This document shows positions 2,145-6,169 of a stretch of DNA of 64,000 nt, one piece after another. This DNA is from Anaerotruncus sp. G3(2012). Its GTDB lineage: Bacteria > Bacillota > Clostridia > Oscillospirales > Ruminococcaceae. Each line of letters begins with the position of its first letter. The first letter of the stretch is position 1. The notes beneath the pieces were generated by a model. That model saw nothing but the letters and a program-made list of their open reading frames with translations. It was not told the origin of the DNA and ran no database searches. The stretch is from positions 1 to 64,000 of the forward strand of contig NZ_KE159668.1 in NCBI RefSeq assembly GCF_000403395.2. The letters run 5' to 3'. The translations under genes and the position numbers were made by a program.

Positions 2145-2206
<62 letters not shown>

Positions 2207-2220
<14 letters not shown>

Positions 2221-2385
2221 TTAAGGGCGGCATCGTAACCGAAGCAGGAATGCTCGGTTAGAAGTCCGACAGGAGGAGATAAACCGCCAATCGCACAGCG
2301 CAGGCTTGTGCTCTTGGACAGGGATTCCTCACTGATCAAATTGCCACTGGCAAATTGATCGGGCGCTCGGACTGATGGCGCACCA
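2207..2385. repeat. Direct repeat of tRNA-Lys 3' end bracketing a spacer
   Basis: The 14-base string CTGATGGCGCACCA occurs at the 3' end of tRNA-Lys (2207-2220) and again at 2372-2385. It brackets about 150 bases with no readable tRNA or ORF. This looks like the footprint of a duplicated and decayed tRNA, or of a site-specific integration into the tRNA 3' end. The sequence alone does not decide between them. Confidence 0.6.
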
Positions 2386-2389
2386 AAGC

Positions 2390-2464
2390 GGCCCGTTGGT
2401 CAAGCGGTCAAGACACCGGCCTCTCACGCCGGTAACGCGGGTTCGATTCCCGCACGGGTCACCA
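2390..2464 (+). tRNA. tRNA-Glu (CTC)
   Basis: Acceptor GGCCCGT pairs with ACGGGTC, the anticodon stem CCGGC/GCCGG encloses a loop with CTC, and an ACCA end is encoded. It lies between tRNA-Lys and the 5S rRNA gene. Confidence 0.93.
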
Positions 2465-2466
2465 AA

Positions 2467-2585
<119 letters not shown>

Positions 2586-2590
2586 TATAT

Positions 2591-2666
2591 TCCTCAATAG
2601 CTCAGTCGGTAGAGCATGCGGCTGTTAACCGCAGGGTCGTTGGTTCGAGTCCAACTTGGGGAGCCA
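2591..2666 (+). tRNA. tRNA-Asn (GTT)
   Basis: Acceptor TCCTCAA pairs with TTGGGGA, anticodon stem TGCGG/CCGCA encloses a loop with GTT, and GCCA is encoded at the end. It starts five bases after the 5S gene. Confidence 0.94.
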
Positions 2667-2705
2667 AATGTACCGCCGTCACTTCGGTGGCGGCACAACT
2701 TTTAT

Positions 2706-2782
2706 GGGCCATTAGCTCAGTTGGTCAGAGCCACCGGCTCATAACCGGTTGGTCCGGGGTTCGAGTCCCTGATGGCCCACCA
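2706..2782 (+). tRNA. tRNA-Met (CAT), probably elongator
   Basis: Acceptor GGGCCAT/ATGGCCC, anticodon stem ACCGG/CCGGT around CAT, and encoded ACCA. A CAT anticodon can also belong to a lysidine-modified tRNA-Ile. The elongator Met reading is the simpler one but is not proven from sequence. Confidence 0.85.
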
Positions 2783-2829
2783 TCAAGTTGAGTCATCAAT
2801 CGGGTTCTTCCCCTTGATTGTTTATAAAT

Positions 2830-2905
2830 AGGGGTATAGCTCAGCTGGTAGAGCAGTGGTCTCCAAAACCACGTGCCGAGGGTTCGAATCCTTCTGCCCC
2901 TGCCA
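2830..2905 (+). tRNA. tRNA-Trp (CCA)
   Basis: Acceptor AGGGGTA pairs with TGCCCCT, anticodon stem GTGGT/ACCAC holds CCA, discriminator G, and CCA is encoded. All arms fold. Confidence 0.95.
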
Positions 2906-2936
2906 CTTTCTCTAACAGGTTGGGCGACCTGTAAAC

Positions 2937-3012
2937 GCTGATATAGCTCAGCAGGCAGAGCACATCCTTGGTAAGGATGAGGTCATCGGTTCGAATCCGA
3001 TTATCAGCTCCA
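2937..3012 (+). tRNA. tRNA-Thr (GGT)
   Basis: Acceptor GCTGATA/TATCAGC, anticodon stem CATCC/GGATG around GGT, discriminator T, and encoded CCA. It is the last gene of the rRNA-tRNA operon and is followed by a terminator. Confidence 0.95.
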
Positions 3013-3210: not shown

Positions 3211-3519
3211 CTAATCCTCTTTTGATCCTTTTGTGTAATTCCGAAATTCATCTTTTAATTCTTTTGGATAGTCTCCGTGTAAAATCTGATCCCGACCAAT
3301 TTCAATGTAAAGCCAATCCTTGAATTTTTGGGGAGAGGGACGCAAACGAAATAAGCCAGGATCCATCTCATAATGAGAATCAATTCCTGTTTTTTCTGTA
3401 AATTCCCGCTCAATACGCAATATCTCTTGACGGCGATACTGATTGATCAAAAAGATGCTTCCAATCACCAGAAAAAATAGGATGAAAAGTGCACCGAGCG
3501 CCATACAAGCTTTTTTCAT
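3211..3519 (-). CDS. Small membrane-anchored protein, unknown function
   Basis: A 102-residue protein starting MKKACMALG has one hydrophobic segment (about residues 5-25) followed by a charged, soluble C-terminal part, so it is probably anchored by its N-terminus with the rest outside the membrane. I chose the ATG at 3519 over an upstream TTG because a G-rich ribosome site sits just before it. It lies 23 bases after the secreted-protein gene at 3543-4154 on the same strand, so the two are probably co-transcribed. I do not recognise a family. The pair is AT-richer than the surroundings. Confidence 0.7.
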   Translation of the reverse strand: MKKACMALGALFILFFLVIGSIFLINQYRRQEILRIEREFTEKTGIDSHYEMDPGLFRLRPSPQKFKDWLYIEIGRDQILHGDYPKELKDEFRNYTKGSKED

Positions 3520-3542
3520 CACTGCGCCCCCAATTCTTGATG

Positions 3543-4154
3543 TTAGAATGGCCAATAAAATTCAACGGTTACGCTTTTAGAACTCCATGTAATCCCTTGT
3601 CTATCATCAAACTTTACACTACCGGTTTGATAAGTTTTTAAAGTAATGCCTTGGTCTAAATATGCATATCGGGGCTGGCTTGTCGAAGTCCATGTTGTAG
3701 AATTATTGCCAGAAATCGTTTTTATAGAAGTAACAGACTTCCATCTTCTGTCACTATCTAAGATAGCTTTTAAAGTCTGCTTAATGAGCACTGATCTCAA
3801 CGAATCTGTTATTTCTTTTTCCCAAAGCTGAGATTTCTCATATGCCATATCGAGCTCTGGATTGGCACGATATGACAATTCCCCTATTGTGTAGGTTTTA
3901 ATATTCTCCAGTTCCGTTTTAATTCGATACTGATCTTCTGCAAATTCCTCTAGAAACTCGATCGTTTCATCATACTGACGGGCATCCACAGAATGCCCAT
4001 ATATATCTATGACTATATCTGTTTCATACATTGCGTTAATACGGTCAACCGCAATCTTCGCTTGCGTATTGTAATCTACTGGGGAAGCAAACGAGGACAC
4101 CCCTAAATTCATAATCATAACAACTGCTAAAATTCTACTAAATATTTTTTTCAT
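3543..4154 (-). CDS. Secreted protein, unknown function
   Basis: A 203-residue protein has a clear signal peptide (MKKIFSRILAVVMIMNLGVSSFAS, predicted cleavage after about residue 24). The mature part is polar, with no lipobox and no further membrane segment. AAGGAG lies eight bases before the ATG at 4154; the in-frame TTG two codons upstream overlaps the spacer and is unlikely. It is followed closely by the membrane protein at 3211-3519. No conserved domain is recognised. The low GC of the pair suggests acquisition, which is inference only. Confidence 0.75.
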   Translation of the reverse strand: MKKIFSRILAVVMIMNLGVSSFASPVDYNTQAKIAVDRINAMYETDIVIDIYGHSVDARQYDETIEFLEEFAEDQYRIKTELENIKTYTIGELSYRANPELDMAYEKSQLWEKEITDSLRSVLIKQTLKAILDSDRRWKSVTSIKTISGNNSTTWTSTSQPRYAYLDQGITLKTYQTGSVKFDDRQGITWSSKSVTVEFYWPF

Positions 4155-4330
4155 TGTCAATACTCCTTAAACATTACTTCTTGATACGATTGGTGGACCT
4201 TAACTCCCATTTTACAACAAAACGATCACCTCCATTTTTAATTTATAATTAACTATATCATAATATATATAATTTCAATATATTAAAAAATATAAATTTT
4301 ATATTTCATTTTCTACATTTATTTTCTTAC

Positions 4331-4359
4331 TTGTCAATTTTGTTTGACTGCGGTATACT
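4331..4359 (+). promoter_or_regulatory. Sigma-A type promoter for the nitrilase-fold pair
   Basis: TTGTCA (4331-4336) and TATACT (4354-4359) are separated by 17 bases, placing a start near 4366. A ribosome site AAGGAGA follows before the TTG start at 4394. Confidence 0.75.
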
Positions 4360-4393: not shown

Positions 4394-5107
4394 TTGGAGA
4401 GCTTTATCACTGAAATTTTGCCGCCGTTCCAAGCGCCCTCACGGGACGCCCGCCTCGTACTTTTCACTGACGAGGCCATTCGGCGGGATCGCGCTGAGGT
4501 TGCCCGTCAGCTTCACCAATATACCCAATATACCGCAAAATACGGAGTCTACCTCATCAGCGGCCTGCTCGAGCTGGACGGAAATCTCTGTCTCTGTATG
4601 TTCGGCCCAAAAGGGGAACCGGTGCTGCGCCAACCTGCGCTGCACCTCTCCTTGCCGCTGCGCACCGCTGGACTGGCAGCGGCGAGTGAGATCGAACTGG
4701 CCCGTACCGAACTCGGCAGCTTCTATCTCTGTGTGGATACCGACATCCTCCACCCGCAGACAGTACGGACGGCAGCGCTCAAGGGCGCGGATGTGGTTTT
4801 TTCAGTGCAGCATATTGACCCGGTGACAGAAACCTCTGGGCGGATTATGGAATCCGTCTGGAATGCGGCGCAGACCAATAATCTATATGTTGTCAACCTG
4901 TCGGGAGGGGCGCGCACTGTTTGCTGCCCCGCGCCGGTCACCCGGGCGGGAGACGGATATCTTGTCCGGCACACCGGGAATTCCCCTTGCCGGTTTGGAT
5001 TAAATCTAGAACGTCTCGATCAGGTGCGCGAAGGGTTTCCGGTCATGGAGCGGATGAATGCCAGCTTGATCCAAAACTATGCAGAAGAACTTGGATTGGG
5101 GAGGTGA
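4394..5107 (+). CDS. Nitrilase-superfamily-like protein, divergent
   Basis: This 237-residue protein starts at TTG behind AAGGAGA. Around residues 111-130 it has the nucleophile region of carbon-nitrogen hydrolases: Cys113 in YLCVDTDILHP followed by a TVRTAALKGADVV stretch, like the usual CxDxxFPE-RxLALxGA pattern. The glutamate and lysine of the normal E-K-C triad are not evident, and the protein is shorter than typical members (about 260-300). It precedes a second nitrilase-fold gene by six bases. The two may act together or may be regulatory or degenerate. Substrate unknown. Confidence 0.65.
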   Translation: MESFITEILPPFQAPSRDARLVLFTDEAIRRDRAEVARQLHQYTQYTAKYGVYLISGLLELDGNLCLCMFGPKGEPVLRQPALHLSLPLRTAGLAAASEIELARTELGSFYLCVDTDILHPQTVRTAALKGADVVFSVQHIDPVTETSGRIMESVWNAAQTNNLYVVNLSGGARTVCCPAPVTRAGDGYLVRHTGNSPCRFGLNLERLDQVREGFPVMERMNASLIQNYAEELGLGR

Positions 5108-5113
5108 GCAGGG

Positions 5114-6169
5114 ATGTCAGGCATCTATCTTGAGCTGCTTTCGTTTTTGATGACCTACCGCGTCACTCCAAAGAAAATCCTGCGGGTGGTTGAGGAGGCG
5201 GGGGAATATCCCAAAAACAATCTGGAATATATCGCGCCTGAAACGGTGCGGGTGGCAGCGGTCCAGCTCAATATTCATCCCTATACCGGTGTACGGGAAT
5301 ATGTGGGCGAGATGCTGGGACATGCGCGTGCTGCCGCGGAAGCGGGCGCACAGATGGTCGTTTACCCGGAATATGTTGGTCTGCTCGCGGGCACGATGAT
5401 CCCGGGGTTTGACCGTCTGCTCAACAAGGTGGTCGCCGAGCGGTTCTCCAAGGACGGCCGGATCGTTTTGCATCCTGACCAGGTTGCTGCCTATGCGGAG
5501 GCGTTTGGGGAGTATCTCCAGGAGGCATATTTTTATACCTTCAGTGCGATTGCACGCTCCCAGCATCTCTATGTAGTGGCGGGGAGCTGCCCCTACTACG
5601 AGGAGGGGCAGATCTATAACCGTTCGATGGTATTTGACCCGCTGGGCAATACGGCCGGGACACAGGACAAGACTTCAGCGCTTGGGCTGGATGAAGCTCT
5701 TGGAGTGACAGTTTCCGATCAGATGGAGATCGTCGAGACCCCTATGGGAAAGGTCGCGGTGGTGCTGGGATCGGATGCTTACTACTTCGAATGTTTCCGG
5801 ATCGCGCGGCAGAAGGGGGCAAGGATTGTCGCGGTGCCGGATGCAGGTGGAGGCCCTGTGATGCACGATCTGCTTCGCTGCCGTGCCCAGCAGGAGGGGC
5901 TTTATCTGCTCCATGCCTGCCTGACCGGAGAACAGCAGAAGTCGCGTGCAGCGATCCTCGCGCCGTTCGACATCACCCCCGACCGGAATGGAATCCTTTC
6001 GATGCTCGAAACCCATGAGCCAAACATGACTGCGTCGCGGATCAATCTGCAAAAGCTGGAAAACCTTTTCCACGAGAGCGAGCCGAACCGCGCCTTCCTC
6101 ACAGGGGATTACCTGCGCAGCTACCGCTATAGCGGAATGGTACTCACCCCGCCTGAACTGCCGGGATAA
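5114..6169 (+). CDS. Nitrilase/carbon-nitrogen hydrolase family protein with altered nucleophile
   Basis: The 351-residue protein has the nitrilase fold pattern: VAAVQLNIHPYTG near residue 47, Glu86 in VVYPEY, and Lys186 in TQDKTSA. At the expected nucleophile site the sequence is VVLGSDAYYFECFRIARQKGA, with Ser220 in place of Cys. In the family the cysteine attacks the amide or nitrile, so classic activity is doubtful here. The upstream partner (4394-5107) keeps the cysteine but not the other two residues. The ATG follows GGGAGGTGAGCAGGG. Operon with the upstream gene is near certain. Confidence 0.75.
   Translation: MSGIYLELLSFLMTYRVTPKKILRVVEEAGEYPKNNLEYIAPETVRVAAVQLNIHPYTGVREYVGEMLGHARAAAEAGAQMVVYPEYVGLLAGTMIPGFDRLLNKVVAERFSKDGRIVLHPDQVAAYAEAFGEYLQEAYFYTFSAIARSQHLYVVAGSCPYYEEGQIYNRSMVFDPLGNTAGTQDKTSALGLDEALGVTVSDQMEIVETPMGKVAVVLGSDAYYFECFRIARQKGARIVAVPDAGGGPVMHDLLRCRAQQEGLYLLHACLTGEQQKSRAAILAPFDITPDRNGILSMLETHEPNMTASRINLQKLENLFHESEPNRAFLTGDYLRSYRYSGMVLTPPELPG

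Follow-up and report, generated by a model that had tools for sequence, protein, structure and literature searches.

Tandem nitrilase-fold pseudo-enzymes of Anaerotruncus and their probable origin in an enzyme/pseudo-enzyme heteromer

Background

Proteins of the nitrilase, or carbon-nitrogen hydrolase, superfamily (PF00795), such as mouse Nit2 (2w1v) and the Pyrococcus amidase PH0642 (1j31/6ypa), have a fold that is common to the two adjacent gene products, A and B, described here from Anaerotruncus sp. G3(2012). B belongs to the Pfam family and keeps the Glu and Lys positions of the catalytic triad. However, the catalytic Cys is absent from both proteins, and A, a short protein that matches no Pfam family, also lacks the Lys.

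A heteromer of nitrilase paralogues has been described in plants. NIT4A and NIT4B form a heteromeric nitrilase (Jenrich et al. 2007, described in PMC5154151 and PMC3537687) and, according to one account in these sources, activity derives from the heteromer. As portrayed there, the likeness to A and B lies in the association of two nitrilase paralogues, which for A and B is suggested by tandem order and gene fusion. The system of these accounts is, however, a plant one, whereas the present one is bacterial; one of its partners has at most one triad residue, and in the pair studied here neither has the nucleophile. The missing Cys argues, on sequence grounds, against hydrolysis of a nitrile such as β-cyanoalanine by this pair. 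Another point of reference is the AdoMetDC prozyme of Trypanosoma, a dead paralogue that pairs with the active enzyme (PMC6221367). As outlined in that source, it could serve as a model for ancestral A as the dead partner; however, the enzyme is a different one, and in the present case the nucleophile eventually disappeared from the active-type partner too. Pairs of this kind are known but are hard to trace through time. No precedent for a bacterial nitrilase pseudo-enzyme pair was present among the literature matches listed, and no link between GH125 and nitrilases, or between carbon-nitrogen hydrolases and Anaerotruncus, was found in the literature searched.

Gene organisation

The window is the whole stretch of DNA analysed, 64,000 nucleotides from the start of contig NZ_KE159668.1. 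The list of open reading frames and the letters themselves show a two-gene unit in which A and B are adjacent and co-directional. Its features, in window coordinates, are the following:

4331..4359, plus strand: candidate vegetative (sigma-A type) promoter before A, TTGTCA-N17-TATACT, 10/12 consensus matches
4394..5107, plus strand: gene A, 237 aa, short nitrilase-fold pseudo-enzyme with Asp26 at the Glu position, Ala82 at the Lys position and Asp115 at the Cys position
4730..4732, plus strand: codon of A Cys113, the Cys closest to the elbow, two residues N-terminal of the nucleophile position
4736..4738, plus strand: codon of A Asp115, where the catalytic Cys would be
5114..6169, plus strand: gene B, 351 aa, CN_hydrolase family, with Glu86 and Lys186 kept and Gly219 replacing the nucleophile
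5369..5371, plus strand: codon of B Glu86, catalytic Glu position
5669..5671, plus strand: codon of B Lys186, catalytic Lys position
5768..5770, plus strand: codon of B Gly219, catalytic Cys position (Ser220 is the next codon, 5771-5773)

Gene A starts with TTG, preceded by AAAGGAG, and gene B with ATG. Only 6 bases separate the two, and the stop codon of A falls within GGAGGTGA, which probably serves as the ribosome-binding site of B; translation of the two genes is therefore probably coupled. A scan of the region for the promoter consensus gave three sites against 2.2 expected in shuffled sequences, a number hardly above chance; a similar box pair, TTGCCA-N17-TATACT, precedes A in the close relative L112. 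This locus, from an Anaerotruncus metagenome-assembled genome, is the nearest named relative (90% identity); further named relatives belong to Anaerotruncus species and Marasmitruncus. In the source genome four proteins match CN_hydrolase, and B is the weakest of them.

A cluster of six tRNA genes lies upstream of the pair (2145-3012), and two open reading frames of 114 and 205 aa, neither with a Pfam match, occupy the minus strand at 3211-4160. The open reading frame downstream of the pair is presumably prfC, encoding release factor 3.

Fold and active-site register

B matches Pfam CN_hydrolase above the cut-off (E 7.6e-18) and NCBIfam with sub-threshold scores only. No match to A was found in Pfam or NCBIfam; its membership of the fold emerges from its predicted structure and from a family profile. 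The AlphaFold2 model of A (pLDDT 93.7, from an alignment of 37 sequences) superposes on mouse Nit2 (2w1v) with Z 24.1 and rmsd 2.6 over 224 residues, and a 37-row profile built from A and related proteins retrieves the same structure at E 4.5e-21. The model of B (pLDDT 89.0, 42 sequences) superposes on 6ypa with Z 30.2 and rmsd 3.7 over 246 residues and includes an extra N-terminal helical extension covering approximately residues 1-40. Foldseek also matches both models to nitrilase-superfamily structures. An earlier reading of this DNA from the sequence alone had seen two adjacent nitrilase-fold proteins, and the open reading frames, the Pfam match of B and the model and profile of A bear this out.

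The triad positions read Glu-Lys-Gly in B and Asp-Ala-Asp in A, so that neither carries Glu-Lys-Cys. The alignments agree with the sequence-only reading on the catalytic positions Glu86 and Lys186 of B and on the want of an obvious Glu and Lys in A, where Asp26 and Ala82 occupy these places. Its two statements about the nucleophile have to be corrected. It had placed a Ser at the nucleophile site of B. However, in the phmmer alignment of B with Nit2, which is ungapped around the elbow, the residue opposite the catalytic Cys is Gly219, and Ser220 comes one residue further; two ordinary nitrilases encoded in this genome, when aligned with B, give the same register. Ser220 thus occupies the Cys+1 column, which holds Ser in 6/27 clade rows and Met in all 51 Cys-bearing rows. 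A had been credited with a retained catalytic Cys, but it is Asp115 that falls on this position, both in the alignment to 3ivz and in the profile alignment to Nit2; Cys113 lies in the strand two residues earlier, in a column that is Cys in 15/27 clade A rows and 2/47 other A rows. The models are in keeping with this register, since the elbow helices (115-119 in A, 219-223 in B) each begin at the nucleophile position. The suggestion that the two are pseudo-enzymes therefore appears to hold for both window proteins, the nucleophile being missing in each. A migrated nucleophile at Cys227 of B was considered and rejected because this residue is Cys in only 7/27 clade rows and is not constant within the genus.

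Conservation and selection in the window's clade

The window's clade comprises Anaerotruncus and related genera. Its conservation alignment has 27 B rows; L067 (Gly at the nucleophile) and L070 (partial, Ala) were left out, as were L116, a near copy of L114, and L118, L119, L120, L122 and L135, whose genomes were reached twice. The nucleophile column of B is Gly in 22 of these rows, Glu in 3 and Ala in 2, and never Cys; in the 51 other B rows, a set that excludes the truncated L192 and genomes read afterwards, it is always Cys. The loss extends to the surroundings of the nucleophile: positions 217, 219, 220, 223, 227, 252 and 253 are fixed in triad-bearing B and mostly lost in the clade. Other positions are better maintained (Gln184 and Glu226 in 26 rows each, Asp221 in 24). 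Glu86 is found in only 21 of the 27 and Lys186 in 23, which suggests that the pocket is not strictly held.

In A, the Cys position is Asp in 24/27 clade rows and Gly in 3/27, and Ala82 is present in 25/27; two pocket positions of A have thus changed together. The Asp26 column is Asp in 15 clade rows, Glu in 5 and other residues in the rest (n=27). In the same alignment it is Glu in 2/47 rows outside the clade, so that the Glu counts of A are somewhat alignment-dependent.

Comparison of the window with L112 gave dN/dS values of 0.069 for A and 0.074 for B, indicating purifying selection on both genes; between L114 and L116 the values were 0.076 and 0.155, respectively.

Tandem pairing and gene fusion

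Both genes were found in all 11 genomes of the genus searched, the source genome included, and five further genera of the same family also have them; in G001 they lie as fragments at two contig ends. Within a family sample of 197 genomes, 23 have a strong B match and A adjoins B in 21 of them. One of the remaining two loci is cut by contig ends (L070/L043). The other (L067, genome G183) has a Cys-less B and no A gene within 1.5 kb before it, the sole such clade locus found. Outside the clade, A adjoins B in 72/76 loci and contig ends interrupt the other four; these relatives, from Syntrophomonadaceae, other Bacillota and Chloroflexota, have the two genes nearly always side by side. At L134 the genes are about 0.8 kb apart rather than directly adjacent, and at L137 about 6 kb, with B cut by a contig end.

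In five genomes outside the clade, A and B form one open frame of 734-823 aa. Four of these (G623, G954, G696 and G661) are from one genus and the fifth, G642, from another family; G778, of the same genus as the four, has A and B as separate genes. The fused loci are:

L224:4049-6517 (G642), L170, L171, L173 and L178: A-B fusion, a single open frame in each

The earlier proposal that A and B act together gains support from the tandem order in and outside the clade and from these fusions. Fusion shows a tendency of the two to work together and is not proof of a dimer in the window's species.

Triad-bearing relatives and intermediates

Relatives outside the clade were sampled in 398 genomes of the phylum and 391 of the class. 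The phylum search returned 103/398 genomes at its cut-off, other nitrilases among them, and triads were read in every genome whose B match reached E<=1e-80, 76 in total (69 from the phylum sample and 7 from the class sample). In these, B has the Lys in 76/76, the Glu in all 75 that are readable and the Cys in 75/76. A is quite different: it has the Lys in 0/71, with Gln in 69 and Ala in 2 at this position, the Cys in 9/71 and the Glu in 4/64 readable rows, and no row has more than one triad residue (the 71 omit L162, L166, L192 and L271, at contig ends, and L259, in which A is truncated). A is therefore dead in the relatives too, which points to an old origin of the inactive partner, recognisable by the Gln that replaces its Lys. 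The absence of an intact triad, on which the sequence-only reading had rested, thus stands for both window proteins and fails for 75 of the 76 B relatives read outside the clade, which leads to a revised history: a pair of active-type and dead subunits first, with both dead later.

Two loci, from genomes outside the family, are intermediate. L187 (G1150, of the same class) and L251 (G851, of the same phylum) have a clade-type A, with Ala and Asp at the diagnostic positions, beside a B with intact triad. Their A rows score 208 and 191 bits, respectively, with the clade A profile and 98 and 115 with the other. For their B rows it is the triad-bearing profile, not the clade profile, that gives the higher score. 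In the tree these rows are sister to the Cys-less clade (SH-aLRT 84 for the sister relationship and 100 for the clade), a placement with SH-aLRT support only. A tree of 93 rows brings together the A rows (90/83), the B rows (96/88) and, as one group, the Cys-less clade B (100/99); L073, L074 and L279 are among the long branches of the trees. The intermediates suggest that A was remodelled first and that B lost its Cys later.

The exception among the 76 genomes is G701. Its locus (L279:86-2329), outside the clade, has a B with Gly in place of Cys and a common-type A beside it, and the genome has no GH125-like gene. Judging by its sequence, this is apparently a second, separate loss of the Cys, in a long branch that the tree places elsewhere. 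Because these genomes are related, the counts given here do not represent independent events.

Gene neighbourhood

Distant members of two known families, the GH125 metal-independent α-mannosidases (PF06824) and the GPH sugar symporters (PF13347/TIGR00792), are frequent neighbours of the triad-bearing pair but are not found beside that of the window. A GH125-like gene occurs in 12/29 loci of triad-bearing pairs and a GPH-type symporter in 10/29; the symporters score below the NCBIfam cut-off, and the GH125-like family (L217:2668-4530 and relatives), of about 610 aa, matches approximately half of the Pfam model. By genome, the GH125-like gene is present in 56/76 outside the clade and within 10 kb of B in 42/76, five of these 42 being partial or split (a fragment in G822, G823 and G953, a contig end in G845 and two frames in G911). 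In G830 a single frame of 1078 aa (L230:1325-4558) combines a triad-bearing B domain with a GH125-like domain. That a GH125-like glycosidase and a sugar symporter are so often encoded nearby suggests that the substrate of the triad-bearing system would probably be a sugar-linked amide.

No GH125-like gene was found in the 11 genomes of the window's genus, and one occurs in 3/61 relatives of the window; the only one of these three that also has the Cys-less pair is G021, in which the GH125-like match covers only 188/619 positions. The gene is also missing from 20/76 genomes outside the clade, 19 of which, the intermediate G1150 included, have a Cys-bearing B. Loss of the B nucleophile thus tends to be accompanied by absence of this gene; the genomes are related and do not amount to many independent cases.

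In the clade the gene neighbours vary and point to no ligand. A spoVAD gene is near the pair in 9/26 clade loci (8/24 genomes), and in L112, L115, L117, L122 and L242-L245 (Oscillospirales) spoVA sporulation genes are found close to the pair. A link to sporulation was rejected: SpoVAD is found in 58/61 relatives whether or not the pair is present, and its presence is therefore uninformative. In another group of Oscillospirales loci (L121, L235, L236, L240 and L241) the pair lies near a deaminase gene, which we take to be tadA, and an Rce1-like gene. Each of the two, under its Pfam name, occurs in 10/31 loci compared and provides no functional clue.

Origin and present role of the pair

Since relatives have a B with full triad beside a dead A, in some cases fused to it, the pair looks as if it came from an old enzyme and its helper. 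On balance, an enzyme/pseudo-enzyme heteromer whose catalytic subunit died later, leaving a conserved, non-catalytic complex that probably binds a ligand, appears the likelier account. A and B would together make up an ancient nitrilase-superfamily heteromer, with ancestral B as a catalytically competent, amidase-like subunit (Glu-Lys-Cys) and ancestral A as a dead paralogue that supported it in a prozyme-like manner. Towards the window's lineage, A would have been remodelled first, by replacement of Gln by Ala at position 82 and of Gly by Asp at position 115. B would next have lost the nucleophile and surrounding residues, with Glu86, Lys186, Gln184 and Asp221 mostly staying in place. Today, A and B most likely form a non-catalytic complex whose ligand would be a small molecule akin to the former substrate and which would serve as a sensor, carrier or scaffold; a signalling role, as once suggested for the pair, is possible.

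Other explanations can be weighed against this scheme. A composite active site, in which a Cys from A and the Glu and Lys from B would make the heterodimer an active hydrolase, was the idea of a triad split across the two proteins. The genes are adjacent and in some relatives fused, and A has a Cys close to its elbow. However, this Cys113 is two residues out of register and poorly kept, its rightful place is taken by Asp115, and the triad of the nitrilase superfamily sits inside one subunit. As neither protein supplies a nucleophile in register, the pair does not sum to one triad, and this explanation is very improbable. A thiol-free chemistry, based for example on Asp115 and Asp117 of A or on Glu86 and Lys186 of B, is unlikely but has more to recommend it: the two B residues are mostly kept, and in the clade Asp117 of A is invariant (27/27), beside the well-conserved Asp115 and Ala82. 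Asp117 is, however, also Asp in 47/47 other A rows, being the usual Asp after the nucleophile, and the replaced elbow columns of B (217, 220, 223, 227, 252 and 253) are mostly variable, unlike those of a newly fixed active site.

That A and B are independent proteins, two separate ligand-binding or moonlighting products of an operon shared by descent, with no mutual binding, is a still less likely proposition. B does stand alone in one clade genome (G183), but the tandem persists across two phyla and A-B fusion has occurred in two families of genomes. As for functionless genes in decay, the catalytic residues have indeed gone from both proteins; purifying selection, with dN/dS of about 0.07 in both genes against L112, and the presence of the pair in every genome of the genus contradict this view, which is the least credible of all.

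The enzyme/pseudo-enzyme origin can be extended, more tentatively, into a wider scenario that is possible but not the expected outcome. Bacillota and Chloroflexota would then possess an amidase system, heteromeric and so far undescribed, in which B is the catalytic subunit, A is prozyme-like, and a GH125-like glycosidase and sugar symporter are associated with the two for the use of a sugar-linked amide. In one gut lineage it might have been converted, one subunit after the other, into a wholly non-catalytic heteromer, used to sense or carry what had been its ligand.

Significance

A profile labels the clade B genes carbon-nitrogen hydrolases, yet metabolic models of the gut should not treat them as hydrolases. 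More generally, living genomes display stages of the sequence of events: a triad-bearing B with a dead A, two intermediates, the doubly dead pair and an apparent second loss in G701. Because these stages coexist, the question of what keeps a pseudo-enzyme complex after catalysis has gone becomes testable with related complexes.
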